The notes beneath the pieces are model-generated. The model worked only from the letters and a program-made list of their open reading frames with translations. It searched no databases and was not told the origin of the DNA. Source: Sorangium aterium (lineage in GTDB: Bacteria; Myxococcota_A; Polyangia; Polyangiales; Polyangiaceae). From it: a stretch of DNA of 64,000 nt. Each line of letters starts with the position of its first letter. Within the stretch, counting starts at the first letter, position 1. The stretch is taken from assembly GCF_028368935.1 (NCBI RefSeq), contig NZ_JAQNDK010000001.1:1116001-1180000 (forward strand), in the 5' to 3' direction. Position numbers and translations under genes: made by a program. Below, piece by piece: positions 1,098 through 31,761 of this stretch.

Positions 1098-1137
1098 GCC
1101 GCGGGCGGCCGCGCGAAGTAAGCCGCGGGCGCCGCGC

Positions 1138-2253: not shown

Positions 2254-2301
2254 GCCGCGAGATCTAGCCCGGAACGCGCGCGGGACGCAGCGGAGATCGC
2301 G

Positions 2302-3159: not shown

Positions 3160-3292
3160 GGCGAGGCCATCGTAACCGAAAACGCCGGCGCCCGTTCACC
3201 CCGCCACGCTCGCCCCGCGCAGCAGCCCGCCTTCGCGGCGCAGGGGGCGTCCATGGCGCCCCGGACGCGGAGCGCCGAGGGCGGCCGGCCGC

Positions 3293-17100: not shown

Positions 17101-17214
17101 CACGCCGATCGGCCCCTGCGCCGGCAGGAGGTGTCCGGCGTGCTCGACCACGTCGGACAGGTGCTTCTGCCGGGCGGCGCTCGAGCGAAGATCCTGAGAG
17201 AGCTCGCTGTTCAT
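14155..17214 (-). CDS. dabA: DabA (DUF2309), zinc subunit of inorganic carbon transporter
   Basis: DabA is a cytoplasmic beta-carbonic-anhydrase-like subunit thought to hydrate CO2 in one direction, driven by DabB. The 1019 residues are near the family's usual length. The zinc ligands defined in Halothiobacillus DabA (Cys-x-Asp, His, Cys) are all here: FCIDDRC gives Cys491 and Asp493, VLGHGATSVN gives His676, and YDCGACGG gives Cys691. The His-Cys spacing (15) matches. There are no membrane spans. It lies between the SulP gene (78 bp upstream) and dabB. In a presumed heterotroph, bicarbonate supply for carboxylases is the likely use. Confidence 0.93.
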   Translation of the reverse strand: MNSELSQDLRSSAARQKHLSDVVEHAGHLLPAQGPIGVFVHHNTLHAFQHLPFHDALAAASAVFEAEPYLSEADYRAHIASGRIGDEDLEAALAGRFAARPDERRGPLSRHEIERLALRHPIDAETAAGLLWRISEAGETRRLRADVPDERRRRIVQNTERWLEAHPEIAARLLDRGGRDPESRAALALWDACRAVPLPPAPPVEPPLVERVGADRSHRDLLIELAGEDPAELVDPLVIRFLGAYLDEGIAHWAMPDRAQGLWRCFRDMALEGSWLAAPAFVGLDVELRRLDAEALSPPAIALRALEELSVTEDHWDVYVTRVLLELPGWAGMIHRLEHTPSDRPPGSPPVSLVEYLAVRLTLARYALRDVARRRLGYRGPLAGLVEHARRAARPPAPPSSSPDHARPFRLFQLAQLAGLSAAEIEPLSTAERVWALEALEAFDEIARRRVLHEAYEHHHRTEVLHGIAANLRRPEEERSVEAPRFQVAFCIDDRCEGLRRHFEELSPRHETFGVAGFFGVPIRYRGLDDAGHVSLCPVGVEPAHEIVERPHEEEAGWRRKARRKRWARLLHALGRGTHTMARGVLLTPTLGLLSTVPLVGRTLFPRAVARLRRALERRLLPPVPTRLHSPHDEGSAAGGEGQPFTAAAKAARVAATLENMGLTRVFAPIVVVLGHGATSVNNPHQSAYDCGACGGRHGGPNARLFAAMANDPEVRVLLAARGIDIPDGTFFLGGMNNTTTDEIVLYDQNLVPASHRGELSALVGALDAARQQHAHERCRRFASAPREGDAARALAHVEARAADLSEARPELGHVTNAVCVVGRRSLTRGLFLDRRAFLVSYDPTQDQGGTILERILLAVGPVGAGINLEYYFSCVDNRRYGAGTKLPHNLASLLGVMEGSLSDLRTGLPKQMIEIHEPVRLLVIVEASTETAGALYARQPALRELIGNGWIQLACVDPATGRIACFTGDGFAPFSPPHQPLPAVQRSADWYAGRSGFVPPALIRAASTRPREVVDHAV

Positions 17215-17292
17215 GGGGTTCCCGAGTGGCGGTTGTTCATGGAGAGCCCCACGCGCGCTTCCCCCTCCCGCGCCATGGCGTCTCGACTCGAT

Positions 17293-18933
17293 TCAACGCT
17301 CGGCGACGGGGCTGATGACGGGCCGCTTCCTCGCCGAGAGCGGGTGGGAGGACATCTGGAAATGATCGCCGAGGCCGGCGAGGGTCAAGGTCCGCCCATT
17401 TCGTTCCATCACGCCCTGGAGCTCATGCAGATTGGACATGACCGTGTGATCGACCAGGCGGGCATCCGCGAAGTTGATCTCGATGTTCGCAACCTGCGCG
17501 TGGTTGTCGATCTTCCGCTGGATGCTGAGGTAATTGCTGAAGATGGCGGCGTGCTTGACGCGCAGCACGACCCGCCCGTCCTCGACGCGCTCGTCCACAT
17601 CGGGGCGGAAGACGACGCGCAGCGGCGCGCCGTTCGTGAGGTGAATGAGCAGCTTCACGGCGATGCCGGCCGCGACGCCGACGAGCAGATCGGAGACGAT
17701 GCACATCACAGCCGTGGTGGCGAAGATGACGAGCTGCTCCCTGCCGATGCGGAGCGTCTTCGCGAACTCCTTGGGCGACGCGAGGCGGGTGCCCGTGAAG
17801 GTGAGCATGGCGGCGAGCGCGGCGAGGGGGATCCGGTGGATGAGGCCCGGCGCGAAGGCCACGAAGAGGAGGAGGAAGGTCCCGTGAAAGAAGTTGGACA
17901 ACCGGCTCTTCGCGCCGTAGCCGATGTTCGCGGAGCTGCGAACGATTTCGGAGATCATCGGCAGCCCGCCGAGCAGGCCCGCGATGAGGTTGCCCACGCC
18001 CGTGGCAAGCAGATCCTTGTCGAGGTTGGACCGGCTCTTCGCGGGATCGAGCGAGTCGACGGCCTTCGCGGACAGGAGCGACTCGATGCTGCCCACCAGC
18101 GAGAACATGACGATATATTTGATGGACGCGGGCGTGCCGACGTGGCTGAAGTCCGGGAAGACGATCGCCTGGAGGAGGTTTCCAGGCAGGTTGACGAGGA
18201 AGCTCGGCCCGATCGCGTACGTCGCCTGGGTCGCCGCGAGCGTGTACGTGTGCTCGTGCTCGAGATCGAAGACATAAGCGAGCGGCACGGACAGCGCGAG
18301 CACCAGCATCGGCGCGGGGATCTTCTGCATCCAGCTCGCTCTCTTGGCGAGCAGCGGATAGCCGAAGAGGAGGATCATCGAGAGGACGCCGATCGAGGCG
18401 ATCTCGGGGTTCAGGCGCGACAGGCTGCGCGGGATCTCGAGGATCAGGTGGAGCGGATCTTTCGCCGAAGGCGTGACGCCGACGAGCGTGTGGACCTGCT
18501 TCGAGCAGATGATGATCCCGATGGCCGCCAGCATGCCGTGGACCACCGAGGAGGGGAAAAAGTCGCCGAGCGTGCCCGCGCGCGCCAGGGCGAAGGCGAT
18601 CTGTGTCACCGCGGCGATGGCGATGCAGGCGAGCGCGCGGCGGTAGCCCACGGCGTTGTCCCCACCGCCGAGCTCCTGGACGGCGCCGAGCGCAATGACG
18701 ATGAGGCCCGCGGCGGGCCCCTTGATGGTCAGCGGCGCGCTGCCGAGCCAGGTGGCGACCATGCCACCGACGACGGCGGTGAGCACGCCCGCGATGGGGG
18801 GGAACCCGCTCGCCATGGCGATGCCCAGGCAGAGCGGTAGGGCGATCAAGAAAACGAGGAACCCTGAAACCAGGTCGTTCCTCCATGTGGACGCCGCGGA
18901 CGTCGACGTCCTAGAAATCTTCGGATTGGACAT
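17293..18933 (-). CDS. SulP-family anion (possibly bicarbonate) transporter with STAS domain
   Basis: A 546-residue permease with ~12 membrane spans (WRNDLVSGFLVFLIALPLCL is the standard SulP opening) and a C-terminal STAS-like domain from ~residue 430 (ANIEINFADARLVDHTVM). SulP members carry sulphate, bicarbonate (BicA) or other anions. Its position as first gene of the DAB operon favours bicarbonate, but this is inference. I chose ATG 18933 (MSNPKISR). An in-frame ATG at 18963 would add ten residues, and neither has a strong ribosome site. It is divergent from the ECF sigma gene across 287 bp. Confidence 0.85.
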   Translation of the reverse strand: MSNPKISRTSTSAASTWRNDLVSGFLVFLIALPLCLGIAMASGFPPIAGVLTAVVGGMVATWLGSAPLTIKGPAAGLIVIALGAVQELGGGDNAVGYRRALACIAIAAVTQIAFALARAGTLGDFFPSSVVHGMLAAIGIIICSKQVHTLVGVTPSAKDPLHLILEIPRSLSRLNPEIASIGVLSMILLFGYPLLAKRASWMQKIPAPMLVLALSVPLAYVFDLEHEHTYTLAATQATYAIGPSFLVNLPGNLLQAIVFPDFSHVGTPASIKYIVMFSLVGSIESLLSAKAVDSLDPAKSRSNLDKDLLATGVGNLIAGLLGGLPMISEIVRSSANIGYGAKSRLSNFFHGTFLLLFVAFAPGLIHRIPLAALAAMLTFTGTRLASPKEFAKTLRIGREQLVIFATTAVMCIVSDLLVGVAAGIAVKLLIHLTNGAPLRVVFRPDVDERVEDGRVVLRVKHAAIFSNYLSIQRKIDNHAQVANIEINFADARLVDHTVMSNLHELQGVMERNGRTLTLAGLGDHFQMSSHPLSARKRPVISPVAER

Positions 18934-19220
18934 GCGGTGCTCGCCTTGGAGTTGGGGCACCATGTGGGCCCGCTGTTCGTCAGAACACGGCCCAGGACGG
19001 GACCACTCAGCCCGAGGTTCCCGCTCGGGGTGACAATTTCGTGCGGCGCCCAGGAACCTCGGCGCGGCTCCGTTCCGTCCCAGGGCGGCCGATGCACATT
19101 TCCCCCTCCTCCGGGGCGCCGTCGCTCGCCCCCCCGTGGCGCGAGCGGCGGGCGCTACCGTTCCGTCCATTCCACGCTAGAGTTCCGGCCTTCGACGCTC
19201 TAGATGCTCGAACGGCCCTC

Positions 19221-19808
19221 ATGACCGAATCGCGACCCTCCCTCGGCGAATCGCGTGCGGCGTTCGAGTCGGCGGTGCGCCCGGTGCTCCCCCGGCTCTA
19301 TCGATTCTGCGCCTCGCTCTGCGGCGCGCGAGACCAGGCGGACGATCTTTTCCAGAACGCGTTGCTCAAGGCATACCTGCACGCGGCGTCCTTCGAAGGG
19401 CGCTCGGACCTCGGCGTCTGGCTGTGCGGGATCGCTCGGCACGAGTACCTGGAGGCCTACCGGACCGAGGCGCGGCGCCGCGGCCTGCTCGATCGGCTCG
19501 TCGAGGTGTGCAGCGAGGCGCTCGGCATCCTGCCTCGCGCCGAGGTCTCGAGCCCGGAGGCGGCCGCGATCTTGAACCAGGACACCGGAGTGCTCCTTGC
19601 GTGCCTCCAGGAGCTGCCGGAGGAGTTTCGCACCGTGGTGGTGCTATGCGACATCGAGGAAGTGGGCTATGACAACGTGGCCGAGCTCCTCGGGATCCCC
19701 AAGGGGACGGTGAAGAGCCGCCACGCTCGCGGGCGCGCGCGGCTGCGCGACGCCTACGAGCGTCTGGCGGCGCCGCGTGTCGTCGCGGCGCGGGAGGGTT
19801 CGACATGA
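19221..19808 (+). CDS. ECF RNA polymerase sigma factor
   Basis: A 195-residue extracytoplasmic-function sigma factor. Region 2 (about 20-85) includes DQADDLFQNALLKAYLHAAS, and region 4 (about 125-180) has YDNVAELLGIPKGTVKSRHARGRARLR, a classic helix-turn-helix. Start ATG at 19221; the frame extends upstream but with poor composition. The stop overlaps the next ATG by 4 bp, coupling it to a membrane protein that is probably its regulator. Imperfect CTAGAG/CTCTAG arms (19177-19182, 19198-19203) lie just upstream. Targets unknown. Confidence 0.9.
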   Translation: MTESRPSLGESRAAFESAVRPVLPRLYRFCASLCGARDQADDLFQNALLKAYLHAASFEGRSDLGVWLCGIARHEYLEAYRTEARRRGLLDRLVEVCSEALGILPRAEVSSPEAAAILNQDTGVLLACLQELPEEFRTVVVLCDIEEVGYDNVAELLGIPKGTVKSRHARGRARLRDAYERLAAPRVVAAREGST

Positions 19809-20407
19809 GCGGGCACGACCGCGAACTGCCTCCGATTCCGCAGGATCTCGAGGCGAGCGTGCGGGCCCTGCGCTCGATGACCCCCCCCGATGCGCTCGTC
19901 GAGCGCGCGCTGAGCAAGCTCCCCGAGCGGCCGAAGCGCCCGGCGGCTGCAGAAGGGTCGCAGCGGGCGAGCAGCCTCTGGGGGTGGAAAGCCTTCCTCG
20001 CGGTCCCGGCGCTCGCGGCGCTGGCGAGCGCCGCCTTCGTGGTGGGCGACATGGGCGCAATATCACCGGCGATCGAGCGCTCCGAGGAGCTTGCGATCGC
20101 CTTGCCTGAAGAAGGGGACGCGTGGATGCACCTCGATCTGTGGACCCACGGCCACGCGGACGAGCCGGCGGTGGTCCATCTCGAGGTGCCCGAGCACGTG
20201 CGCGTGAGGTTGCCTGACGGCGAAGGAGGATCGCGGGAGCAGCACTGCCAGCAGGAGCGCTGCTCGCACAGGCTGACGCGCTACCGCGGCGACGCGCCGC
20301 TCAGCGTGGCCGTCGCTCAGCCGGGCCGGTACGAGATCCACGTCCGCCACGAGTCGAACGAGGCGCGCGTGCGCGAGCGCTTCATTCTGATAGCGGCGCG
20401 CGATTGA
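19805..20407 (+). CDS. Membrane-anchored putative anti-sigma partner, copy A
   Basis: A 200-residue protein with an N-terminal cytoplasmic part of ~60 residues, one transmembrane helix (AFLAVPALAALASAAFVV) and a ~110-residue outer domain. This is the layout of a membrane anti-sigma factor, and it is translationally coupled to the ECF gene (ATGA overlap). It lacks the zinc HxxxCxxC motif of ZAS anti-sigmas. The outer domain has EQHCQQERCSH, two cysteines six apart, which could sense redox, and a beta-rich end (GRYEIHVRHES). A second copy lies at 21982-22593. Anti-sigma function is inferred from context. Confidence 0.72.
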   Translation: MSGHDRELPPIPQDLEASVRALRSMTPPDALVERALSKLPERPKRPAAAEGSQRASSLWGWKAFLAVPALAALASAAFVVGDMGAISPAIERSEELAIALPEEGDAWMHLDLWTHGHADEPAVVHLEVPEHVRVRLPDGEGGSREQHCQQERCSHRLTRYRGDAPLSVAVAQPGRYEIHVRHESNEARVRERFILIAARD

Positions 20408-20497
20408 GCCCAGGGGGCGTGAAGACGACCTCCTCTTCGAGGGGTGCTCCTCGCGGGCGCTCGACCGCTTCCGGGTGAGCCTTCCAGGTTGGTAGGA

Positions 20498-20517
20498 AGC
20501 GCCTTGCGGAAGGCGCT
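20498..20517. terminator. Hairpin between convergent genes
   Basis: AGCGCCTT (20498-20505), loop GCGG, AAGGCGCT (20510-20517). It lies between the copy A stop (20407) and the activator stop (20523). Near-perfect extension on both sides. Confidence 0.5.
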
Positions 20518-20522
20518 CCGGT

Positions 20523-21596
20523 TCACCTCTTCGCCGCCTTCTGCTCTCCACGAACACGCACACTTGGCACCCGCACGCGCCCCGCTGCGACGTAGCGTTG
20601 CACCGTCCTCAGGCTGATCCGAAGCCGCGCCGCCGCCTTGATCTTGTCGCCCCCGTCGCGCTCCAGCGCCGCCTCGACGATCTGCTGGATGAGCGACTCC
20701 AATCCGTCGTCGAGGTCGAGCACGAGCGAGGTGCTGGCGCGCGACACGCCCGCGGCGGCTTCTTCGGGCATGACCTGCGAACGGACGCCCTCGGGCAGAT
20801 CGGCCACGCGCACCTGCCGCCCATCCCGGAGCAAGCAGAGCGTCTCCACGACGTTCCGGAGCTCGCGCACGTTGCCAGGCCAGTCGTAACGGAGTAGCAG
20901 CGCCTTGGCCTGCCGGCTGAACCTCGGCGGGCGAACCCCGTGTCGCGCCGAGTGCTGCGCGGTGAACTGATTCAGCAGGGGCGCGATGTCGGCGCGCCGC
21001 TCCCGCAAAGCGGGGACATTGAGCGTGATGCCCTGGATTCGATAGAACAGGTCGGCGCGAAAGCGGCCCGCGCGCACCTCCTGATCGAGCGGTCGCAGCG
21101 TGGCAAACATCAACCGGACATCCGCCTCGATCTTGGTCGCGCCGCCCACGCGCATGTACCGGCGGTTCTCGAGGAATCGCAGGAGCTTCGCCTGCATCGG
21201 CATCGGCATCTCGCCGATCTCATCGAGCAAGAGCGTGCCCCGCTCGGCCGCTTCGACTTTGCCCTTCGCCCGCTCGCTCGCCCCGGTGAACGCGCCGCGC
21301 TCGTGACCGAAGAGCTCGCTTTCAAAGAGCGCGTCGGGGATCGCCGCGCAATTGATGGGCACGAACGGCCCGCGCCGACGCTCCGAAAGCTCGTGCGCGC
21401 GCCTCGCCAGCACCTCCTTGCCGCAGCCGCTCTCGCCGATCAGCGTCAGGGTGACGTCCTTCGCGGCGACGGCGCGGAGGATTTGGTCCGCCTTTTTCAT
21501 GGCGTGGGAGCGCATGATCGGCTCGAATACGACGTCAGGTCGTCGTTTTCGCTCTCGCACGCGAGAAATAGTGAGCGATCTGGTCGCAACCTGCAA
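20523..21596 (-). CDS. Sigma-54-dependent transcriptional activator
   Basis: A bacterial enhancer-binding protein of 357 residues. The AAA+ core has Walker A GESGCGKE (54-61), the sigma-54 contact loop GAFTGA (101-106) and Walker B LLLDEIGE (122-129). A Fis-type helix-turn-helix is at the C-terminus ([20 protein letters not shown]). There is almost no N-terminal sensor domain (first ~25 residues only), so it is regulated by another protein or constitutive. It is divergent from a sequence matching a sigma-54 promoter at 21733-21748, which is a plausible target. Confidence 0.9.
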
Positions 21597-21732
21597 GCCC
21601 GACGACGAAAGCGGCTCCAGCGATCCACGTCACCCCTCGACTGGCGAAAGCCGTCGGCTGTCTGGCTTGGAAATGCCGAGAAAGCACGCCGCTTCGAGCG
21701 CTCCAGGCACGGCCCACGGCCAAGCCGTGTTC

Positions 21733-21748
21733 CGGCACGGATTCTGCT
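21733..21748 (+). promoter_or_regulatory. Candidate sigma-54 (-24/-12) promoter
   Basis: CGGCACGGATTCTGCT matches the consensus TGGCACGNNNNTTGCW, with the invariant GG and GC correctly spaced. Only the first base and the first T of TTGC differ. It sits 13 bp before the GTG at 21761, giving an almost leaderless transcript, and a sigma-54 activator gene is divergent alongside. Not tested experimentally. Confidence 0.55.
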
Positions 21749-21760
21749 GTAGCAAATACC

Positions 21761-21985
21761 GTGAACGAAGGTCCCACGACGAACCGCGCGCTCCGCGCCT
21801 GGGTCCAGGCGATCGCCGAACACACGCGGCCAGCACGCATCCGTTGGTGCGACGGCAGCGCGGAGGAGCGGACCCCCGTCGAGCGCGACATGGCGCTCTC
21901 CGGTTCGTTCATCGAGCTGGATCCGCAGACCCCCGAGCGTCTGGCGGCGCCACGCGTCGTCGCGGCGCGCGAGGGTTCGACGTGA
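21761..21985 (+). pseudogene. 5' remnant of GTP-type PEP carboxykinase joined to ECF sigma tail
   Basis: The first ~58 codons read as the N-terminus of GTP-dependent PEP carboxykinase (NRALRAWVQAIAEHTRPARI, then WCDGS and GSFIELDPQ). At 21934 the sequence switches to the 3' end of the ECF sigma gene: from CGAGCGTCTGGCGGCG it matches 19757 onward, giving ERLAAPRVVAAREGST and stop. The result is a 74-codon chimera, too short for any enzyme. The catalytic core of PEPCK is absent. Its GTGA end overlaps the copied partner gene, so it could serve as a translated leader for that gene. Confidence 0.8.
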
Positions 21986-22593
21986 GCGGGCGCGACCACG
22001 ATCTGCCTTCGATTCCCCCGGATCTCGAGGCGAGCGTGCGGGCGCTGCGCTCGATGAACCCATCCGATGCGCTCGTCGAGCGCGCGCTGAGCAAGCTCCC
22101 CGAGGGGTCGGAGCGCCCGGCGGTGACAGGCAGCGCGCGGTCGCAGCGGGCGAGCTGCCCTTGGCGGTGGAGGGCCTTGCTTGCAGCCCCAGCGCTCGCG
22201 GCGCTGGCGACCGCCGTCGTCGTGGCGGGCGACAGGGGCGCGGGATCTCCGGCGATCGAGCGCTTGGAGGAGCGTGCCATCGCCTTGCCTGAGGAAGGGG
22301 ACGCGTGGATGCACCTCGATCTGTGGACCGACCGCCACGCGGACGAGCCGGCGGTGGTTCACCTCGAGGTGCCCGAGCACGTGCGCGTGCGGCTACCTGA
22401 CGGCGACGGTGGAGCGCTGGAGCAGCACTGCCAGCAGCAGCGCTGCTCGCACTGGCTGACGCGCTACCGTCGTGGCGACGCGCCGCTCAGCGTGGCCGTC
22501 GCGCAGCCGGGCCGCTATGAGATCCACGTTCGTCACGAGTCGAACGAGGCGCGCGTACGCGAGCGCTTCGTGCTGATCGCCGCACGCGAGTGA
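21982..22593 (+). CDS. Membrane-anchored putative anti-sigma partner, copy B (duplicate)
   Basis: A 203-residue paralogue of the protein at 19805-20407, about four-fifths identical by eye, with the same cytoplasmic segment, single membrane helix (LLAAPALAALATAVVVAGD), EQHCQQQRCSH pair and C-terminus. It starts with GTG 21982, overlapping the chimeric upstream frame by 4 bp just as copy A overlaps the sigma gene. No complete sigma factor accompanies it. The frame is intact, with no stops, suggesting selection or fairly recent copying. It may cross-talk with the ECF sigma at 19221, or be idle. Confidence 0.7.
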   Translation: MSGRDHDLPSIPPDLEASVRALRSMNPSDALVERALSKLPEGSERPAVTGSARSQRASCPWRWRALLAAPALAALATAVVVAGDRGAGSPAIERLEERAIALPEEGDAWMHLDLWTDRHADEPAVVHLEVPEHVRVRLPDGDGGALEQHCQQQRCSHWLTRYRRGDAPLSVAVAQPGRYEIHVRHESNEARVRERFVLIAARE

Positions 22594-22630
22594 GCCTGGC
22601 TCTACTGCGGGAAGTCGGCCAAGGAAGCGA

Positions 22631-22656
22631 ACCGCCAAGCCGCCAAGGGCGCCAAG
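22631..22656. repeat. CGCCAAG direct repeat
   Basis: CGCCAAG occurs three times, at 22633, 22641 and 22650, between the duplicated partner gene and the PEPCK 3' remnant. Strings of this type recur in intergenic DNA of many high-GC bacteria. Function unknown. Confidence 0.6.
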
Positions 22657-22692
22657 AAAACCGGGGGATACGGCGAAGCGCGGAGCTCTCGT

Positions 22693-22971
22693 CACGGCGT
22701 CTACATCGGTGCGACCATGGCGAGCGAGACGACCGCCGCGGCGACCGGCGCTGTCGGCGTCCTCAGACACGATCCCATGGCGATGCTCGCCTTCTGCGGG
22801 TACAATATGGGCAGTTACTTTGCGCACTGGCTCGCGGTCGACAGCGGCGCGTGGTTGAGCGAAGCCGATGGTGTCCTCGACCTCCTCCGCAAGTTCGCGG
22901 ATCGACTCCCCGCGGCGCCGCTGGCCGAGCACCGGTTGCTCGTCAAGCGACTGCACGATTCGCTGCATTGA
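22693..22971 (+). pseudogene. 3' remnant of GTP-type PEP carboxykinase with internal deletion
   Basis: From [19 protein letters not shown] through [16 protein letters not shown] this matches the late core of GTP-PEPCK (HGVxxGAxMxSExTAAA). Directly after HW the frame jumps to [14 protein letters not shown] and FADRLPA, which is the extreme C-terminus (compare LAVDxxxW in mycobacterial PEPCK). So about 95 residues are missing at ~22833. Together with the 5' piece at 21761 this shows a pckG gene that lost its middle and gained a sigma-partner cassette. An ATG at 22717 could still give an 84-residue product, but not an enzyme. Confidence 0.8.
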
Positions 22972-22989
22972 GCTGAGCTGGGAGAACTC

Positions 22990-23730
22990 GTGGAAAACCG
23001 TATCAAATCTTCGGCGGCGAACGTCTGCCGCGATAGAGACCAGGCCTCCGCAGATGGCCGCGCTGCCGGACCACCGGCAGGTGCCGTCGCGGAAGCGCTG
23101 CGAGCAGGGCGCAGCCCCAGGAATCGCGACTTCGACCGCTTCCTTCCTGATAAGCTGCGCGCCGTCTCCGCTCAGTTCTGGACGCCGATCGAGGTCGCTG
23201 TTCGCACGGCCCAGTGGCTTGACGAGTTCGACGTCCGCACCGTCGTCGATGTCGGGTCGGGCGCCGGCAAGTTCTGCGTGGCGGCGGCGCTGGCGGGACG
23301 CAGCCACTTCACGGGGATCGAACAGCGACCTCGGCTCGTCATGGCGGCGCGCAGCCTCGCGCGGATCTTCGAGATCGAGGACCGCGCTTGTTTCGTCGAA
23401 GCCGCCCTGGGGAGAGCGGAGGTTCCTCGCGCGGACGCCTACTACTTCTTCAACCCGTTCGGCGAGAATCTCTTCGGACGAGAAGAGCACCTCGATGAAG
23501 ACGTCGAGCTGGGCGTCGATCGATACCAGCACGACACTGCGGCCGCCGAAAGGCTCCTGGACGAGGCGCCACTCAACACCTATCTCCTGACGTACAACGG
23601 CTTCGGCGGACGGGTACCGGACAGCTATGACGAAGTCCGCGTCGATCGGGAGCTCCCAAACGTCCTGCGGATGTGGCGAAAGGCGCGCCTTGTGGCGACC
23701 GGTCCGGGTCTAGCGCCGGATGAGCGCTGA
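22990..23730 (+). CDS. Class I SAM-dependent methyltransferase-like protein
   Basis: A 246-residue protein with a Rossmann-type SAM site, VVDVGSGAGKFCVAAAL (about 86-102), and an acidic end of beta-2 (HFTGIEQR). Later YYFFNPFGENLF sits where methyltransferases have their motif IV. The GTG start at 22990 has GGGAGA six bases upstream. The N-terminal ~50 residues are polar and divergent. The substrate is unknown. It is convergent with the Ehr operon and ends at a hairpin. Confidence 0.75.
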   Translation: MENRIKSSAANVCRDRDQASADGRAAGPPAGAVAEALRAGRSPRNRDFDRFLPDKLRAVSAQFWTPIEVAVRTAQWLDEFDVRTVVDVGSGAGKFCVAAALAGRSHFTGIEQRPRLVMAARSLARIFEIEDRACFVEAALGRAEVPRADAYYFFNPFGENLFGREEHLDEDVELGVDRYQHDTAAAERLLDEAPLNTYLLTYNGFGGRVPDSYDEVRVDRELPNVLRMWRKARLVATGPGLAPDER

Positions 23731-23742
23731 TCACCACGACGA

Positions 23743-23770
23743 CGCGTGATGCGCCGTCGCACATCACGCG
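23743..23770. terminator. Hairpin between methyltransferase and Ehr operon ends
   Basis: CGCGTGATG (23743-23751) pairs perfectly with CATCACGCG (23762-23770) around a 10-nt loop. The right arm contains the stop codon of the Ehr small-subunit gene. Suitable as a bidirectional terminator. Confidence 0.55.
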
Positions 23771-24516
23771 ATCCCGAGCAGATCGAGTATCGCGTTTACG
23801 AAGGTGAGCGGGTGCGGGGGACATCCAGGGACGTAGAGTGAAGGGCCAACGCTCTCCAGGAAGCCGCGGTCGACGCCCGCCGCGCCGTCGTAGAGGCCCC
23901 CGGAGATCGCGCAGGCCCCCACGGCGACGACGAACCGCGGCTCGGGCATCGCATCCCAGGCCAGCCGAACCGCCTCCTTCATGTTGCGCGTGAGCGGACC
24001 TGTCAGGACGAGCGCATCCGCGTGCCGCGGAGAAGCTACCCACTCGATCCCGAACCGCTGCACATCGAAGTTGACGTTGGTGACGGCGTTCAGCTCGAGC
24101 TCGCAGGCGTTGCAGCCGCCGGCCGAGACCTGGCGCATCTTCAGAGACCGCCCGAACAACCTCGAGAACGCCGCGGAAGCGCGGACCCGCACCATCTCCT
24201 CTTCGCCCTCTCGAACCGTGAGGTCAACGGGCTCGTTCCCGCCCATCCTGGGCTCCGGCCTGAACTCGATCTTCGTCTCGGGACAGACCTCCGCGCAAGC
24301 GTTGCAGAAGACGCAGCGGCCCAGATCGAGCGCCACCGGAGCCAGCCGGATGGCCTGGGTCGGGCACGCGTCGCGGCACGCGCTGCAATCGGCCGCGCAG
24401 GGGTCGCGGCGGATCGTCGGGCGACCACGAAACCCGGTTGGTACTGCCTTGCGGAGATCCGCGATGGCCTGCGTGCCCTGGGAGGCACGTACACGGAGCG
24501 ACAAAAACATGCTCAT
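23764..24516 (-). CDS. Ehr complex: fused ferredoxin (HyfH/NuoI) and small subunit (HyfI/NuoB)
   Basis: A 250-residue iron-sulphur protein. Residues 40-51 (C40, C44, C47, C51) and 68-78 (C68, C71, C74, C78) form two 4Fe-4S ferredoxin motifs, as in NuoI/HyfH. Residues ~130-250 are a NuoB/HyfI-type small subunit with Cys135, Cys138, Cys202 and Cys232 as ligands of the proximal 4Fe-4S cluster. In hydrogenase-4 and complex I these are normally two separate genes, so this is a fusion. It should pass electrons between a soluble carrier and the large subunit. Last gene of the operon; its ATG overlaps the previous stop by 4 bp. Confidence 0.88.
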   Translation of the reverse strand: MSMFLSLRVRASQGTQAIADLRKAVPTGFRGRPTIRRDPCAADCSACRDACPTQAIRLAPVALDLGRCVFCNACAEVCPETKIEFRPEPRMGGNEPVDLTVREGEEEMVRVRASAAFSRLFGRSLKMRQVSAGGCNACELELNAVTNVNFDVQRFGIEWVASPRHADALVLTGPLTRNMKEAVRLAWDAMPEPRFVVAVGACAISGGLYDGAAGVDRGFLESVGPSLYVPGCPPHPLTFVNAILDLLGIA

Positions 24517-25985
24517 AGATCGTTCCCGCAGTAGGAGAGGTCGAAGCTCTTGTTGCAGATCGGGAAGTCCGAGATCTCGTTGCCGCGCACCGCGAGGGCG
24601 AGCCCCATCCAGTTGCGGAGCGATGGGTCCTGGACTTTGTAATGGACCACCTCGCCGTGCGCGCCGGTCTCGATGCAGTGGACGACCTCTCCCCGAAAGC
24701 CCTCCACGAGCGAAATGGCAAGCTGGTTCGGCGCGAGCTCGCCGATCGATAGCGGCGGATGCTCCCAGTTCGGGTAGAGCGCGATGACGGTCGATATCCA
24801 CGACAGGGACGCTTCGATCTCCGCGATGCGGATACGCGCGCGTGCCCAGCAGTCGCCGTCCGGCAAGACGGCGGGCTGGATGGGCACCACGCTGTACGCC
24901 CCGTGCTCCATGAGGTGGCGCGCGTCGAGCTCGATCCCCGAGGCGCGCGCGGCCAGCCCGACGAGCCCGAGCTCCCGCGCTTGCGCGGTCGTCAACGTTC
25001 CCGTGGAACGCAGCCGGTGCTGAACCGTTCGTGCCATGAGAAAGCAATCGTTGATGATCGGCAGATCTGCTTGAAGCAGCTCGAGGTTCGCGCGAATGTC
25101 GCGCAGCGTCTCCGGCGGCAGCCGCATCCGGACTCCGCCGGGACGTAGCGCTCCTCTGCCGAAGCGGCTGCCACACAGCCGCATCATCGTGTTGATCGCC
25201 GTGGTTCGGAGCCGGCCGTAGGTCGTCGCTCCCTGCAGAAATCCGACATCCGCCGCCATCCCGGCGAGCCCCGAGAGGTGCATCGCGACCCGCTCGAGCT
25301 CGAGAGCGACCGCCCGGGCGAGCTCGGTTTCGCCGTCCAGCTGGCATCCCGCGAGGCCCTCGAGGGCGGAGCAGTACGCCCATGCGTGAGCGACGCTGGT
25401 ATCTCCCGCGATGGTCTCGATGAGCGGGGTCAGGCTCCGCGGATCACGCTCGAGGAGCCGACGTTCGACGCCACGGTGCTGATAACCGAGGTGGATCTCC
25501 AGGTGATGCACCTGCTCCCCGAGGCACATGAAACGAAAGGAGCCGGGCTCGATCACCCCGGCATGGATGGGGCCGACAGCGACCTCGTGCACCTCCTTCC
25601 CTTCAATCTTGTAGAATGGGTGCGAGCGCATCGCCGATTGCTCCTGCCCCTCGTAGCGGATCGGCTTGAGCCACGGATGTCCGGCGATTCGCACGCCGGT
25701 CTGCTCGTGGAGCTCGCGCTCGAAGCAGTGAAGCGCGGCGTGCTCTGTCGTCATCTCGTGGTACCCGCGCTCCGGGGCCACCTCGGTCCTCGAGACGCGC
25801 AGGGAACGGTCCGACGCCTGAAGAACCGCCGTGATCGCGACGCGGTCGAGGTCGCGCCTGCCGACCAGCGTGACCACACGCATGTCCGCGCGGAGCTGCT
25901 TCAAGAGATCTTCGCGCCACGGCCCCGGCTCGAGCCTCGGGATCGCGTCCACGGCGACCTGGTGGGCGGTCATCGATGCCTTCAC
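24513..25985 (-). CDS. Ehr complex large subunit (HyfG/NuoCD-like) without Ni-Fe ligands
   Basis: A 490-residue protein: NuoC-like domain (~30-150) fused to a NuoD/hydrogenase large-subunit domain (HLGYQHRGVERRL at ~165). Where Ni-Fe enzymes have RxCGxC this has IAGDTSVAH (Ala193, Thr196). At the C-terminus DPCxxC is replaced by DLSYCG (Ser484, Gly487). All four Ni ligands are gone, so it cannot be a Ni-Fe hydrogenase, and no C-terminal processing site follows. The GTG start at 25985 overlaps the previous stop (GTGA). It belongs to the energy-converting-hydrogenase-related (Ehr) group, whose reaction is unknown. Confidence 0.87.
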   Translation of the reverse strand: MKASMTAHQVAVDAIPRLEPGPWREDLLKQLRADMRVVTLVGRRDLDRVAITAVLQASDRSLRVSRTEVAPERGYHEMTTEHAALHCFERELHEQTGVRIAGHPWLKPIRYEGQEQSAMRSHPFYKIEGKEVHEVAVGPIHAGVIEPGSFRFMCLGEQVHHLEIHLGYQHRGVERRLLERDPRSLTPLIETIAGDTSVAHAWAYCSALEGLAGCQLDGETELARAVALELERVAMHLSGLAGMAADVGFLQGATTYGRLRTTAINTMMRLCGSRFGRGALRPGGVRMRLPPETLRDIRANLELLQADLPIINDCFLMARTVQHRLRSTGTLTTAQARELGLVGLAARASGIELDARHLMEHGAYSVVPIQPAVLPDGDCWARARIRIAEIEASLSWISTVIALYPNWEHPPLSIGELAPNQLAISLVEGFRGEVVHCIETGAHGEVVHYKVQDPSLRNWMGLALAVRGNEISDFPICNKSFDLSYCGNDL

Positions 25986-27418
25986 GGCCCCTCCAAGCAA
26001 CCAGCCACCTGCGCGAGCAGCGAGTTGATGGGCGGCGGGATGTAGACGCCCAGCACCACCAGCGCGACGAGGAACCCGAGCTTGGGCAGAGCGACCGGCA
26101 GCGTCTGCCGAGGCCAGCTGCGCTGCCTCGTGGGTTCACCCCAGATCATCGGAAACACCGCTCGCCCCGTCGCCACGAACGTCATCGTGATCAGCACGCA
26201 GAAGGCGGCGAAGACGAGCATCTGCCCCGAGCCGACGAGGGCAGACAGGATCAGGAGCTCTCCGAGAAAGCTGCCGAACGGCGGAAAGCCGAGCAGCGCG
26301 AAGGTGCCGACCATCAAGAACCCGCCGCTGTACGGGAGGTCCTCGATGAGGCCCGATATCGCGCGCGTGTCCTTGGTACGATAATGAGCCTTGATCGTGC
26401 CCGCCGTGAGGAAGAGGATCGCCTTGATGAAGGCGTTGCTCAGGACATAGAGCAGAAGTCCGTAGGACGCCGACTTGCCGACGCCGAGGCCGATCGCGAT
26501 CACTCCGGCATGGTTGATCGACGCATAAGCGATGAGGCGCTTCAGGTTGCGGGTCGCTATGATGCCGACCGTCGACACGACCACCGAGACGATGCCCATC
26601 GTGAGGAGCTCGCCTTCCAAGAGCGCCGCGTGGGTCGGTCGGACCACCTGAACGACGCGGAGCAGCGCGACGAGAACGCAGTTGAACTGGACGGCGCCGA
26701 GGAGCGCCGCGACGGCCGGCGGGGCCTCGTCGTAGGCCTCCGGGAGCCAGCTGTACATCGGCGCGAGGCCCAGCTTGGTGCCCAGCCCGAGGAGCGCCAG
26801 CGCGGCCCCGAGCTTCGTCCAGTGGTTCACCGGGATCGCGGAAGGCTCGAGGAGGCGATCGAGGAAGAACGTCGGAGCCTGGCCGCCGGCTTCGAGCCCG
26901 CGCCCCAGGCAGATGAAGCCGACGAGGAGCACGCCGAGCCCGACGGACGAGAAGAGCAAATAGCGCCATGACGCTCGATGGGACGCCGGTACGCCGGGTC
27001 GCACGATGAGGGGCGCGGCCGCGAGGGTGGTCGCCTCGAGCGCGATCCAGAGCAACACCAGGTGATTCGCGATAAGCACCGTGTTGGCTGCAGCCAGGAA
27101 CAACAGCGCCAGCCACACGAACCGCGCGATGTCCTGGCGGAGCGCCGGGGTCGTGTACACCCGATGCATCACGTACAGGGAGATGCCGAGGAAGATCGAG
27201 TCCACGACGGTCATGAAGAGCCGTGAAGTCGCGTCCAGGCGAAAGAATCCGCCGAGAGAGCCCGGGACGTCGGGGGGCATCGCGGCTCCCATGATCGCGA
27301 GGGCCGTCGTTATCGCGGAGGCGCCGACAAGGACCAGCGTGGCTCGTTCGCGGGCGGCGCGCGCGATGAGCGCCACGGATGCGAGCGCTGGAAGCAGGAC
27401 GAGGGCGATCGTGCTCAT
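25982..27418 (-). CDS. Ehr complex membrane subunit, HyfF/NuoN-like antiporter
   Basis: A 478-residue polytopic antiporter-type subunit (~14 helices). The TM5 Glu is kept in LLWIALEATTLAAA and the TM7 Lys in GLGTKLGLAPMYSWLPEAY. The TM8 position (LGAVQFNCVLVALLR) has no lysine. It probably pumps ions when the hydrophilic arm transfers electrons. The start overlaps the preceding gene's stop by 4 bp and its stop overlaps the next start, so it is tightly coupled within the six-gene unit. Confidence 0.87.
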   Translation of the reverse strand: MSTIALVLLPALASVALIARAARERATLVLVGASAITTALAIMGAAMPPDVPGSLGGFFRLDATSRLFMTVVDSIFLGISLYVMHRVYTTPALRQDIARFVWLALLFLAAANTVLIANHLVLLWIALEATTLAAAPLIVRPGVPASHRASWRYLLFSSVGLGVLLVGFICLGRGLEAGGQAPTFFLDRLLEPSAIPVNHWTKLGAALALLGLGTKLGLAPMYSWLPEAYDEAPPAVAALLGAVQFNCVLVALLRVVQVVRPTHAALLEGELLTMGIVSVVVSTVGIIATRNLKRLIAYASINHAGVIAIGLGVGKSASYGLLLYVLSNAFIKAILFLTAGTIKAHYRTKDTRAISGLIEDLPYSGGFLMVGTFALLGFPPFGSFLGELLILSALVGSGQMLVFAAFCVLITMTFVATGRAVFPMIWGEPTRQRSWPRQTLPVALPKLGFLVALVVLGVYIPPPINSLLAQVAGCLEGP

Positions 27419-28047
27419 AGCGTGGGCCCCTCCACGGCGCCCTCGGGCTGCGCGGCGGTGCTCGCGCCGAGCATCTTGAGATACCAGCGATAGAGCGCGA
27501 TCGTCACGGCGACGACGGCGACCTGACCGAGCTGAACGGCGAGCATGTCGTGCTCGTGCGCGCCGCCGAGCTCGAATAGAGCGATCGCGTTCTCGACGCG
27601 AAGAACACCCACCATCTGGCTGAACGGACCGGATTGCGTCGATAGCACGAGGAAGCCGAGCAGCACCCCCGCTGCAGCCACCGCGACGAGCGTTCGCTGC
27701 TCTCCGTGCTCGGGGACGAGCGACTCGGAGAAGTTGAAGGCGAGGAGGACGATGCCGAGGGCGATCGTCCAGGAGAGGAGGTTCGGCGAGATGACGTCGT
27801 TGCGCCGGGGCGCGTTCTGCGACCGAAGCACGCGGTAGAGCGCGATCGGCGCGGCGAGCCCGCGCAGGAGGACCAGATCGCCCAGGGTGACCCAGTCACT
27901 CACGGCGTCGAGCTCCGGATTCAGGCGGTACGCCACCCACGCCATCAAGAACCCTTGGCAGGACAGGCCGAGCAGGCTCGTCCGCCACGTCGCGACGAAC
28001 AGGGGGATGAGCAGCACGCCGAGCAGCGTATTCAAGAGGGGGCTCAT
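27415..28047 (-). CDS. Ehr complex membrane subunit, HyfE-like
   Basis: A 210-residue hydrophobic protein with about six membrane spans (LLNTLLGVLLIPLFVATW, LLSWTIALGIVLLAFNF). It contains the HyfE-type segment GVLRVENAIALFELGGAHEH, where conserved Glu residues sit in a helix like that of NuoK. It presumably links the antiporter subunits to the hydrophilic arm. ATG 28047 overlaps the stop of the NuoH-like gene by 4 bp. Confidence 0.82.
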   Translation of the reverse strand: MSPLLNTLLGVLLIPLFVATWRTSLLGLSCQGFLMAWVAYRLNPELDAVSDWVTLGDLVLLRGLAAPIALYRVLRSQNAPRRNDVISPNLLSWTIALGIVLLAFNFSESLVPEHGEQRTLVAVAAAGVLLGFLVLSTQSGPFSQMVGVLRVENAIALFELGGAHEHDMLAVQLGQVAVVAVTIALYRWYLKMLGASTAAQPEGAVEGPTL

Positions 28048-28967
28048 TCGGGGCCCCCCGCCCGCCACACGGTCGCGAGGAGCGCGACCGAGCCAGCGGC
28101 GAGCGCGATGACGATGTACTGGGGAACCGAGCGTAGCTTCAGCCGGGCTACCAGGGATTCGATCGTTCCAATCACGACGCCGGCCGCGAGGGTCAAGGCG
28201 AGGTTCGCGGCGGCGCAGGCCGCGCCGCCGGAGCCCGCCCACGGATTGAGGAGCGTCGCGACGATGGACGCGCCGACGAAGAGCTTGATCGCGGAGCCGA
28301 GGTGGATGCACGCGAGATCCGGGCCGCTGTGGTCGAGGATCATGACCTCATGCACCATCGTGAGCTCGAGGTGGGTCGTCGGGTCGTCGACGGGCATGCG
28401 CGCCGCCTCGACCTGAAGCACGATGAGCATCGCCACGACCGCGGCGCCCCAGACGAGCGCGGGTGCGCCGGCGTGGAGGTGCGGCGCCAGCGCCTCGTGC
28501 AGGGTGCGTCGGCCCCCGACGAGGCTCAGCGCGCCGGTGACGAGGAACAGCGCCGGCTCGAGGAGCGACGAGAAGACAGCCTCCCGCGCTGCGCCCATCC
28601 CCTCGAAGGAGCTCCCCGTATCGAGCGCGGCGAGCATGATGGCGACGCGGCCCAGCCCCCACACGTACGCGAACCACACGAAATCGAGCTGGAACGACGC
28701 GAGGGGCGTCGAACCGAGGAGAGGCGCGATGAGGGCGGAGCCCACCGCGGTCGCGAGGAACACGTACGGCGCGACCCGGAACAGCGGTGTCGTCGTCGTG
28801 CTGTAGACAGACGATTTCCGAAAGAGCCGCCTCACGTCATGGACGAGCTGAAGGACCGGCGGTCCCTTGCGCCCGGACCAGAGCGACTTCACGCGGTTGA
28901 TCACGCCGGTGAGGACGAACGGCATGACGACGAGCACGGCGACGTTCGCGAGGCGGGTGAGCATCAT
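28044..28967 (-). CDS. Ehr complex membrane anchor, HyfC/NuoH-like
   Basis: A 307-residue NuoH-family protein with about eight helices. The loop WSGRKGPPVLQLVHDVRRLF and the segment DDPTTHLELTMVHEVMILDH are diagnostic of the HyfC/HycD/NuoH group (in hydrogenases DDPxTHLELTMxHE). In complex I this subunit forms the quinone chamber; in membrane hydrogenases it docks the large subunit. The ATG at 28967 overlaps the preceding stop by 4 bp. Confidence 0.9.
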   Translation of the reverse strand: MMLTRLANVAVLVVMPFVLTGVINRVKSLWSGRKGPPVLQLVHDVRRLFRKSSVYSTTTTPLFRVAPYVFLATAVGSALIAPLLGSTPLASFQLDFVWFAYVWGLGRVAIMLAALDTGSSFEGMGAAREAVFSSLLEPALFLVTGALSLVGGRRTLHEALAPHLHAGAPALVWGAAVVAMLIVLQVEAARMPVDDPTTHLELTMVHEVMILDHSGPDLACIHLGSAIKLFVGASIVATLLNPWAGSGGAACAAANLALTLAAGVVIGTIESLVARLKLRSVPQYIVIALAAGSVALLATVWRAGGPE

Positions 28968-30940
28968 CGGCCGACCCCTCCGACGACCATCGCGCCGATG
29001 ATGACGAGCGCCACGAGCCCTGCGGCGAACGCGAAGCGCGGCTGCTCTGGGATGCGGTCAAAGGCTTGAGCGATGAAGTTCTCTCCGTGCCCGAGCACCT
29101 CGAACATGCGTCGCTCGACGGCGTCGACATGGTGCGTCGACAGATGGCCGGGCTGCTGCGGGAACGGCCCCTCGGGCAGCCGCTCCCTTCGAAGCGACGG
29201 CAAGAAGGATGCGAAGAACCGCGTGAATTGCTCGGAGAACGAGCTCCCCGTGTACTGCATGCGAGAGGAGGTGGCGGTGGTTCCACACCCCCACGTGACG
29301 CTTCGCCGCGCCGCTCGACCTCGACGCCAGCCGATCACGCCGGCGACGAGCAAGGCGCCGGCGAGCGCGCGGCTCGCCCACGCGAGCGGAGCGAGCAGGG
29401 CCGGCAGCGTGCTCGCGCTGGACTCGATGGGAAAGAGCCTCAGCGCGGCGCCTATCGCTGCGATGCCCAGGTCTGGAGCCACGCCGATGGCGACCACGAG
29501 CGCGGCGTGGATCACCATGGGCCAGAGCATCGAACCCGGCGCGTCCTCGCCGACGTGGAGCCCTGGCTCCCGAGGCACGCCGAGGAACGTGAGCCCGAAG
29601 GCCCTTGTCATCGACAGCGCGCTCACCGCGCCGACGAACGCCAGGGCCGCCGCCGCTGCGATGGTCACCACGCTGCCTTGACTGGAAGGCGCGCGCCCTG
29701 CGAGGAGCCCGGCGTAGATCAGGAACTCGCTGACGAAGCCGTTGAGCGGCGGGAGCGCGGAGATGGCCAGGGATCCGATGAGGAAGAGGATGGATGTCCG
29801 CGGGAGACGCCTCGCGAGCCCGCCGAGCCGCTCGAGATCGACGGTGTGCGCAGCCCGGTAGATCGCTCCAGCGGCGTAGAACAGAAGGCACTTGAACAGC
29901 GCGTGATTCAGGACGTGCAGGAGGCCGCCGCCGAAGCCGCACACGGTCAGCGCAGGGACTCCCCAGGCCCATCCCAGGTATCCCACCCCGAAGCCCATCG
30001 CTGCGATGCCGACGTTCTCTGTCGACGAGTACCCGAGCAGGCGCTTCAGATCGCGCTCGGCGGACGTGGAGAGGACGCCGAAGAACGCGGAGAGCGCGCC
30101 GAAGCCGAGCACGCTCCATCCCATCCACTCGTCGGGTCGTCCCATGAGCAGCGTGAAGCGGAGAAAGGCAAAGAGACCGGCCTTGTGGATCACGCCGGAC
30201 ATGAGCGCCGAGATGTGCGCCGGCGCCGCGGAGTGGGCTCGGGGAAGCCACGTGTGAAACGGAAAAAACGCGGATTTCAGCGCGAACGACGCCCCGAGGA
30301 GCAGGAAGAGCGTCCCCCGCGTCGGATCCTGGCTCGACAGGAATTTGCCGAACACGGCGAAGTCCATGGAGTCGGTCTTGCTGTGGAGCAGCATGAACGC
30401 CGCGACAAGGACGAAGAGCCCGACATGGGTTGAGATGAGATAGTTGAAGCCGGCAAAGCGGATCTTCTGGTTTCGGTAGTCCCAGATGACGAGCAGCCAC
30501 GCTGCGAGGGCGGCGATCTCCCATCCCAGCAAGAACACGAGGGCGTTCTGCACCGAGTAGATCAGCACGAAGGACAGGGCGACCATGTTCAAGAGAGCGA
30601 AGTGGGAGCCGCCGTTCCTCCCTCGATCGAAGTAGGGGCGGAGGTATCCGACGGCGTAGATCGTTCCGAGCAGCGTCATCGGGAGGGACCACGCGAGGAA
30701 GAACGCTCCGAGCGCGTCGACGCGAAACGCCATGCTGTCGATGGGCGTCGGCCAGGGCCACACGATCTCCAGAGCCTCGCCGCCTCGAAGGAGGGGGGCG
30801 ACCCTCGCGAGCACGAGCGCTGCGGCGATCGCTTGCGAGGCGATCGCCGCAGCGCTTCGCGCGCCGTTCGAGCGCAGGCCCAGCGAGAGCGCCGCCCCGA
30901 CGAGCAGCACGGGCACGCTGAGAAGCAGGGATCCCGTCAC
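28964..30940 (-). CDS. Ehr complex membrane subunit, HyfB/NuoL-like antiporter
   Basis: First gene of the six-gene Ehr operon; 658 residues with ~15 membrane helices. Key ion-path residues are intact: Glu in VFLLGWEIAALAAWLL, Lys in FALKSAFFPFHTWLPRAH, and His-Lys in SGVIHKAGLFAFLRF. The antiporter family (HyfB, MrpA, NuoL) uses these to move protons or sodium. The C-terminal ~90 residues include polar stretches and a final helix. The start ATG is at 30940; a receiver-like gene lies 79 bp upstream on the same strand. Confidence 0.88.
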   Translation of the reverse strand: MTGSLLLSVPVLLVGAALSLGLRSNGARSAAAIASQAIAAALVLARVAPLLRGGEALEIVWPWPTPIDSMAFRVDALGAFFLAWSLPMTLLGTIYAVGYLRPYFDRGRNGGSHFALLNMVALSFVLIYSVQNALVFLLGWEIAALAAWLLVIWDYRNQKIRFAGFNYLISTHVGLFVLVAAFMLLHSKTDSMDFAVFGKFLSSQDPTRGTLFLLLGASFALKSAFFPFHTWLPRAHSAAPAHISALMSGVIHKAGLFAFLRFTLLMGRPDEWMGWSVLGFGALSAFFGVLSTSAERDLKRLLGYSSTENVGIAAMGFGVGYLGWAWGVPALTVCGFGGGLLHVLNHALFKCLLFYAAGAIYRAAHTVDLERLGGLARRLPRTSILFLIGSLAISALPPLNGFVSEFLIYAGLLAGRAPSSQGSVVTIAAAAALAFVGAVSALSMTRAFGLTFLGVPREPGLHVGEDAPGSMLWPMVIHAALVVAIGVAPDLGIAAIGAALRLFPIESSASTLPALLAPLAWASRALAGALLVAGVIGWRRGRAARRSVTWGCGTTATSSRMQYTGSSFSEQFTRFFASFLPSLRRERLPEGPFPQQPGHLSTHHVDAVERRMFEVLGHGENFIAQAFDRIPEQPRFAFAAGLVALVIIGAMVVGGVGR

Positions 30941-31019
30941 CTTGCTGTCCTCCCGCGACGTCCGATGGCGCGTCGCGCTGCGCCAGGAGGAGATGAATGC
31001 AGGCGAGCCGTTGAAGCAA

Positions 31020-31415
31020 TCATATGGACCTCGGATGAGCGTGGGCGCGAAGAGCGTCGAGGAGGTTCCAGCCGAACGCCGGCTTCGGCAGCACCATGGG
31101 TGGCAAGGAGTGGCCGTCCGGCCCCAGCGCGGAGCGAAAGGACTGTGGTGTGCCCGTCACGAGGAGGATGAGGAGCTTCGGTCGCGCGCTCCGCAGCGAC
31201 GTGATGAACGTCACGATGTCGCCGGGATCGAAGTCGTCGGGAAACAGGACCAGAGCGGTGGTCGCGGGCACCATCCTGTCCGCGTCGTTCAATGTCCTCG
31301 TGCCGTTCGACGCAATCCCGGCCTGGCTGAAGTAGGCATGAAGCGCGTCGATCGTCTCGGGATTGTCCGCGACGACGGCGACGTGGAGCGACCTGGCGGA
31401 GGGGCGGTTTGCCAT
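31020..31415 (-). CDS. Response-regulator receiver-like protein
   Basis: A 131-residue single-domain protein from ATG 31415 (MANRPSARSLHVAVVADNP). The alternating beta/alpha pattern and LPKP (conserved Lys-Pro of receivers) support a CheY-like fold. LVTG fits the conserved Thr strand. The phospho-acceptor Asp expected after strand 3 is unclear (LVLFPDDFD: either Pro at the exact position or a shifted Asp), so it may be a pseudo-receiver. It is just upstream of the Ehr operon on the same strand and may be co-transcribed. Confidence 0.62.
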   Translation of the reverse strand: MANRPSARSLHVAVVADNPETIDALHAYFSQAGIASNGTRTLNDADRMVPATTALVLFPDDFDPGDIVTFITSLRSARPKLLILLVTGTPQSFRSALGPDGHSLPPMVLPKPAFGWNLLDALRAHAHPRSI

Positions 31416-31761
31416 GGCTGCCCGGGCGTGTAGCAAGCCGGGGGCCGCCTCGTGAAAGGCGCAAAAACCTCGAGTACGCGCCTGGTGGGACGGGAGAGCT
31501 GACGACCCTCTCGGAGGGCAGTGCCACAAAACGACAGATTGACGCAGGAAACGGCGACATCTGCCGTGACTTTCGTCATGGGTAGGTCGCCTTTTGACGC
31601 GATGGCGCCTACTTGACGCGATGGCGCCTACTTGACGCTCCGAACGCCAGCCAGCGGAGGAATCGTCATGCCGAGCTCGACGCCGTCGGAGCGCGCCGCT
31701 CGCCCGGGGTTGACCGCTTGCTCAGAGCGTCCGATCCGGGGGTCCCTGCTTCGCGCCGCGG
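31416..31761. other. Intergenic stretch with short tandem repeat
   Basis: A stretch of about 346 bp between the MazG stop and the receiver gene start, both on the minus strand. Apart from the 19-bp repeat at 31594-31639 I see no convincing gene. A plus-strand reading frame here has poor composition. Promoters for the receiver/Ehr unit should lie here. Confidence 0.6.
31594..31639. repeat. 19-bp tandem repeat, two full copies plus a part
   Basis: TTGACGCGATGGCGCCTAC occurs at 31594-31612 and 31613-31631, followed by TTGACGC. Copies are identical. Each begins with a TTGAC that resembles a -35 box. Confidence 0.85.

Follow-up and report, generated by a model that had tools for sequence, protein, structure and literature searches.

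Introduction

The Ehr, or Ech-hydrogenase-related, complexes (Marreiros et al. 2013) have to our knowledge been recognized for some 20 years. No reaction has been assigned to them, and they are regarded by some authors as dead hydrogenases. Complexes of this type without Ni-Fe motifs have been described from Geobacter (PMC7894505), Sulfobacillus (PMC4378227), and candidate phyla (PMC6349859), in each case with no reaction assigned. Here, we report a six-gene operon of this kind in the soil myxobacterium Sorangium aterium, located in a 64,000-nucleotide stretch of contig NZ_JAQNDK010000001.1 (positions 1,116,001 to 1,180,000; assembly GCF_028368935.1), hereafter the window. The operon is a further member of the known Ehr kind, in a six-gene form, whose large subunit has lost every Ni-Fe cysteine; none of its aligned relatives has the full set of four. 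Its island, its linkage to a regulator, and an association with pyruvate:ferredoxin oxidoreductase (PFOR) are additions for which the open-access literature searched yielded no earlier report.

The complexes of Geobacter sulfurreducens (GSU0739-0745) and Sulfobacillus resemble that of the window in their HyfB/NuoL-, NuoH-, and HyfE-like membrane subunits and in the lack of Ni-Fe motifs from the large and the small subunit, a likeness drawn from descriptions of the named EhrL proteins rather than from their placement in our tree. Seven genes encode the Geobacter complex, two of them for EhrA; the operon of the window has six genes and a single HyfB, and a sigma-54 activator and a methyltransferase lie next to it. 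Stand-alone six-gene hyf sets are also known from Cupriavidus metallidurans (hyfBCEFGI, Rmet_4666-4671) and Cupriavidus necator (H16_A2196-2201), where they were judged unlikely to serve lithotrophy (PMC2864759). The Cupriavidus set matches the window in its six stand-alone genes, and the large-subunit homolog of C. metallidurans CH34 is 34% identical to the window's; by gene set alone it resembles the relatives without a ferredoxin domain (type 2, below).

Escherichia coli hydrogenases 3 and 4 (HycE/HyfG) are built from the same subunit families and share a proton-relay glutamate with the window; the window complex differs in lacking the four Ni ligands, the C-terminal processing tail, and HyfA, HyfD, and HyfJ, and falls in a separate clade. 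MBS of Pyrococcus furiosus is a Ni-less group 4 relative that links the oxidation of ferredoxin to ion gradients, with a three-cysteine proximal cluster, loss of MbhL E21, and no counterparts of Nqo4 H38 and Y87 (PMC7684303). The window family, in contrast, has a four-cysteine, CxxC-type proximal cluster, keeps the glutamate, and has no Ni-site cysteine, of which MBS retains two. Complex I has the NuoB/C/D/H/K/L-like core in common with the window complex, which lacks NuoE, NuoF, and NuoG, departs from complex I at the quinone-ligand positions, and belongs to a separate clade.

Operon and large subunit

All six genes lie on the minus strand (30940 to 23764) and 5/5 junctions are 4-bp overlaps, which confirms the gene order and coordinates of the first-pass annotation, made from the letters of the window. 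In order of transcription, they encode a HyfB-like (EhrA-type), antiporter-like membrane subunit (28964..30940; 658 amino acids [aa]; GTG start; Pfam Proton_antipo_M, 2e-50; NCBIfam HyfB, 1e-133, which is under the family cutoff), a HyfC/NuoH-like membrane anchor (28044..28967; 307 aa; Pfam NADHdh, 7.5e-25), a HyfE/NuoK-like membrane subunit (27415..28047; 210 aa) named from a weak match to the NCBIfam hydrogenase-4 membrane subunit (6.6e-4), a conserved membrane glutamate, and operon position, and a HyfF-like, antiporter-like membrane subunit (25982..27418; 478 aa; Pfam Proton_antipo_M, 1e-41; NCBIfam HyfF, 7e-63). They are followed by an EhrL/HyfG-like large subunit with a NuoC-like N terminus and a NuoD-like core (24513..25985; 490 aa), assigned from PDB matches, an AlphaFold2 (AF2) model, a motif table, and trees, and by a fused HyfH (ferredoxin-like) and HyfI/NuoB small subunit with three [4Fe-4S] sites (23764..24516; 250 aa; Pfam Oxidored_q6, 1.3e-26, and Fer4). 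The GTG at 25985 was taken as the start of the large subunit, which gives the 490-aa length, the residue numbering of the first-pass annotation, and the 4-bp overlap with HyfF. The top PDB matches of this subunit were E. coli formate hydrogenlyase (FHL) HycE (3e-36) and P. furiosus MbhL (1e-35), before complex I NuoD, and the top structural match of its AF2 model was FHL HycE (7z0s_E; TM score, 0.80).

Ala193, Thr196, Ser484, and Gly487 occupy the four Ni-Fe cysteine positions (alignment and motif table), as had been read from the window, and neither hydrogenase motif (RxCGxCxxxH or DPCxxCxxH/R) is matched. The four-cysteine set was found in 0/64 aligned relatives, two of which have a lone cysteine at the first position. 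Asp195 is present in 64/64 and in none of the cysteine-bearing or complex I sequences set against them. Ser484 and Gly487 are near-invariant, and GD[T/S] and LSYxGxDL form the signature of this Ni-less clade. Because the site is replaced in the same way in all 64 relatives, its loss is not a product of chance or sequencing error and, judged by these alignments, is a conserved state and not decay. The family also has no C-terminal maturation tail: 93/93 motif matches in the fetched loci (a redundant count, with overlapping loci entered more than once) stop directly at the motif, unlike E. coli HycE and HyfG, which continue for 32 aa. This absence is not exclusive to Ni-less proteins, being shared by the cysteine-bearing relative L123 (L and G numbers denote our loci and genomes). 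No hyp or maturation protease gene occurs among the window genes examined, in line with the first reading; the genome carries HypD on another contig (C6, 915-921 kb), beside an unrelated [NiFe]-hydrogenase.

Elsewhere in the pocket, Glu146, equivalent to the hydrogenase proton-relay glutamate MbhL E21, is kept in the Ni-less family, and the coupling aspartate of complex I (Nqo4 D139) has an equivalent in D246. The positions of the complex I quinone ligands Nqo4 His38 and Tyr87 are held by Pro147 and Gly194, and therefore a headgroup site like that of complex I appears to be missing. A quinone acceptor, tentatively suggested in the first-pass annotation, is thus unsupported by the sequence and, in the manner of complex I, unlikely; a quinone might still bind in some other mode.

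Phylogeny and subtypes

Rooted on complex I, the tree united the Ni-less sequences in a single clade (support, 99/97), whose sister (100/100) was the cysteine-bearing, group-4-like protein L123 of genome G167. The closest Ni-site-bearing sister lies in L153 (G167:C671, 1007-2621); it is a group-4-like large subunit (ICGVC / SFELCYACTDR) that stops at the motif and has no maturation tail. E. coli HycE and HyfG and the cysteine-bearing L122 branched further out than L123, and complex I formed a separate clade (100/100). Two trees were made, a larger quick tree and a careful tree from which the long-branch rows L054 and L148 were left out. The large subunit of the window thus falls inside neither complex I nor hydrogenase-4, and the Ehr identity first proposed for it is supported by its sequence, because the Ni ligands are lost and its tree position lies outside complex I and hydrogenases 3 and 4. 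The simplest reading of the tree would be one loss of the Ni site within group 4.

Members of the Ni-less clade come from Myxococcota, Betaproteobacteria, Alphaproteobacteria, Deinococcota, and Elusimicrobia. They divide into type 1 (100/100), which includes the window, type B, which frequently has two HyfB genes, type 2 (Beta- and Alphaproteobacteria), which lacks the ferredoxin domain, and a lone plasmid-borne form from Allomeiothermus silvanus. Different forms can adjoin: type 1 and type 2 cassettes lie side by side on Variovorax sp. PBL-E5 plasmid 3 (L072, 8890-26770), G056 has type B genes beside its type 1 operon, and Anaeromyxobacter oryzisoli SG63 (L043) has HyfB/HyfC-like genes (129-3229, minus strand) that belong to another Ehr-like operon, which diverges from the type 1 operon.

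Iron-sulfur clusters, pump residues, and PFOR

The proximal cluster of the small subunit is complete, with hydrogenase-like CxxC ligation (CNAC..GAC..GCP; alignment), and both ferredoxin clusters have their full number of ligands, which upholds the earlier claim that all three are intact. One extra residue in the first (CxxxCxxCxxxCP) is common to nearly all type 1 and type B relatives, in which the ligands of all three clusters are strictly kept. Also conserved in relatives are the acidic HyfC motif EAARMPVDDPTTHLELTMVHE, the HyfE membrane glutamate, and the transmembrane Glu and Lys residues of the two antiporter-like subunits, HyfB and HyfF (with helices assigned from knowledge of complex I and not from a model of these proteins), except for the HyfF TM8 lysine, which is missing in E. 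coli HyfF too.

Among 379 Myxococcota genomes, NifJ-type PFOR (called at a best POR_N E value of ≤1e-74) was found in 30/45 with Ehr and 62/334 without (odds ratio, 8.8; p=1e-10). The association persisted when stratified by family (odds ratio, 4.6; p=2e-4), a conservative estimate in that unlisted genomes negative for both PFOR and Ehr were left out of the strata.

Proposed mechanism and alternatives

We favour, at slightly better than even confidence, an ion pump that is fed by ferredoxin and delivers its electrons to an acceptor in the vacated pocket. On this view, the complex is a six-subunit membrane machine that descends from a group 4 hydrogenase and has given up hydrogen chemistry. Electrons of low potential, for which reduced ferredoxin is the most likely source, would enter the fused ferredoxin domain with its two [4Fe-4S] clusters, pass to the proximal [4Fe-4S] cluster, and leave to an acceptor bound at the former Ni-Fe site, in a pocket that has kept the proton-relay Glu146 and gained Asp195; this redox step would drive ion pumping via HyfC, HyfE, HyfF, and HyfB. 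The ferredoxin-driven pump of the first-pass annotation therein gains indirect support from the pump residues, the Fe-S ligands, and the co-occurrence with PFOR. Also in favour of our reading are the fixed replacement of the Ni ligands, the missing maturation tail, the absence of HypD from 27/45 Ehr-bearing Myxococcota genomes, and the precedent of MBS, a Ni-less relative that oxidizes ferredoxin (PMC7684303).

Several findings weigh against this reading. The Sorangium genome has no PFOR-type enzyme (best POR_N E value, 3e-7), which weakens the earlier claim as well. HypD, present in 18/45 Ehr-bearing Myxococcota genomes, showed an association with Ehr below significance either way (p=0.075) and is itself correlated with PFOR, and the co-occurrence of Ehr and PFOR may reflect an anaerobic lifestyle in general. 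The ferredoxin domain is missing from type 2 relatives in Rhizobium, Burkholderia, and Variovorax, and the A. silvanus relative, a six-gene cassette on pMESIL01 (L073, 7011-14186), has lost every proximal-cluster cysteine with its membrane genes and pump residues intact. Acceptor-binding residues could not be assigned; the AF2 model of the large subunit was poor at the pocket (residues 113-174 and 491-495, in 495-aa numbering, are unreliable), and pocket geometry was dropped.

The lack of a PFOR-type ferredoxin reducer in the Sorangium genome would also suit a complex run in reverse, in which the proton-motive force pushes electrons from a membrane donor (e.g., menaquinol) to ferredoxin, providing low-potential reductant in an aerobe; Ehr relatives are present in aerobic soil bacteria, and both complex I and the energy-converting hydrogenases can run in either direction. 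Phylum-wide, however, Ehr accompanies PFOR, already a maker of reduced ferredoxin, and the complex I quinone ligands are missing in the Ni-less family; we regard reversal as unlikely. Very unlikely, in our judgement, is a docked formate dehydrogenase that would send electrons through Ehr to quinone or another acceptor. Such an arrangement has been put forward for Margulisbacteria and Saganbacteria (PMC6349859), the Ehr subunits of Geobacter reach higher levels on formate (PMC7894505), and the Sorangium genome has eight molybdopterin-family matches, but we found no formate dehydrogenase gene among the window genes examined, as a conserved neighbour in ~37 related loci (by gene clustering, with most clusters not individually annotated), or in the annotated plasmid loci, and no HycB/HyfA-type linker gene. 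With no recurrent formate dehydrogenase neighbour at type 1 loci, this association was rejected.

That pump residues outlast redox centres, with a single cluster left in type 2 and every proximal ligand gone in A. silvanus, would fit a largely redox-free, Mrp-like ion transporter with a peripheral arm retained for assembly or gating. The strict retention of three clusters in types 1 and B and the family's association with PFOR argue otherwise, and we consider such a transporter distinctly unlikely. We give as little credence to a related idea, in which the Ehr family would be a redox machine in the course of being stripped, from a Ni-Fe hydrogenase ancestor through Ni-less, Fe-S-complete forms (the window) to one-cluster forms (Rhizobium and Burkholderia) and one without a proximal cluster (A. 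silvanus); its ion-moving arm would be kept, and the vacated pocket, with its invariant Asp195 and Glu146, might carry out a new proton-coupled reaction or do no more than gate the flow of ions. A ferredoxin-fed reductase of sulfane sulfur (polysulfide) would liken the complex to MBS, also Ni-less and without Nqo4 H38/Y87 (PMC7684303). The three-cysteine proximal cluster of MBS, its loss of MbhL E21, and its two remaining Ni ligands nevertheless set it apart from the Ni-less family, with its four-cysteine cluster, its glutamate, and none of the Ni ligands, and make this highly improbable.

On our favoured reading of a ferredoxin-fed pump, PFOR and ferredoxin would be the likely electron source of a module that, in soil bacteria, appears to be conserved, mobile, and under regulation. 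The linked sigma-54 activator offers a handle on the timing of Ehr production, the naturally redox-stripped relatives could help to tell electron transfer and ion transport apart, and the Ehr question is testable in culturable carriers such as A. oryzisoli and plasmid-bearing Variovorax.

Island and regulation

The operon and its companion genes occupy an 11.3-kb island (20411..31748) that is not in congeners G001, G004, and G005, which are collinear with the window to 20410-20419 and again from 31749-31755. At the island site, G005 has only 18 bp and G001 has ~2.2 kb of other DNA; the GC content is 67.7% in the island and 72.1-72.6% in its flanks. Besides the operon, the island carries a sigma-54 transcription activator with AAA+ and HTH_8 domains and no receiver domain (20523..21596, on the operon's strand; Pfam Sigma54_activat, 4e-63), a class I methyltransferase-like gene transcribed toward the operon (22990..23730, plus strand; weak Pfam Methyltransf_31, 1e-4), and a 131-aa gene upstream of HyfB (31020..31415, minus strand). 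The last is receiver-like by eye only, had no Pfam match at E≤10, and gave an AF2 model that was discarded (pLDDT, 54); L057 has a 56%-identical ortholog at the same place, there overlapping HyfB.

Activator orthologs (60-78% identity) lie beside Ehr in L057, L058, L102, L103, and L105 (type 1) and L117 (type B), other sigma-54 activators adjoin it in L036, L040, L041, and L043, and methyltransferase homologs do so in L057 (64%), L102, and L105. Genome G051, from a different family, has the same gene set in the same order as the window island. The Ehr unit thus exceeds six genes, because its island brings along a sigma-54 activator and a methyltransferase. Sigma-54 -24/-12 sites upstream of HyfB were enriched in the 11 loci with an adjacent activator (Fisher p 2e-6), with no enrichment in the 24 loci without one (p 0.71), by p values that take related loci as independent and a site score with weights picked by hand. 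In the window, a weak promoter-like site, CGGCCCCCGGCTTGCT (31432..31447, minus strand; p ~0.08), lies just upstream of the 131-aa gene. Judged from the window alone it was too weak, and significance was reached only over the activator-bearing loci as a set. E. coli hydrogenases 3 and 4 are regulated by the sigma-54 activators FhlA and HyfR, and the adjacent activator probably controls the operon here. The best reading is that the island was recently acquired and that the operon is a horizontally moved module, putatively under sigma-54 control.

Type B and two type 1 loci have an HTH_17 and phosphotransferase system (PTS) EIIA regulator in front instead. Genes with HTH_17 and PTS_EIIA_2 domains were seen just upstream of or within the Ehr operons of L045, L052, L058, L061, L062, L104, L112-L115, L117, and L119, hinting at PTS-type control of these operons.

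A 663-bp repeat in the island (21934..22596) is 88% identical to 19757-20410 at the island edge (blastn), and the pair may bear on how the activator or the island arrived. Beyond the island, the minus strand at 11194-19170 encodes a SulP permease, DabA (PF10070; E value, 1e-253), and two antiporter-like (DabB-type) proteins, a DAB-type inorganic carbon locus. A tie between Ehr and inorganic carbon uptake was considered and treated as coincidence, as this locus is resident in congeners without Ehr; family searches did not find DabA in the Ehr-bearing genomes G042, G051, G054, and G056. SulP genes near other Ehr loci are 25-28% identical to the SulP of the window.

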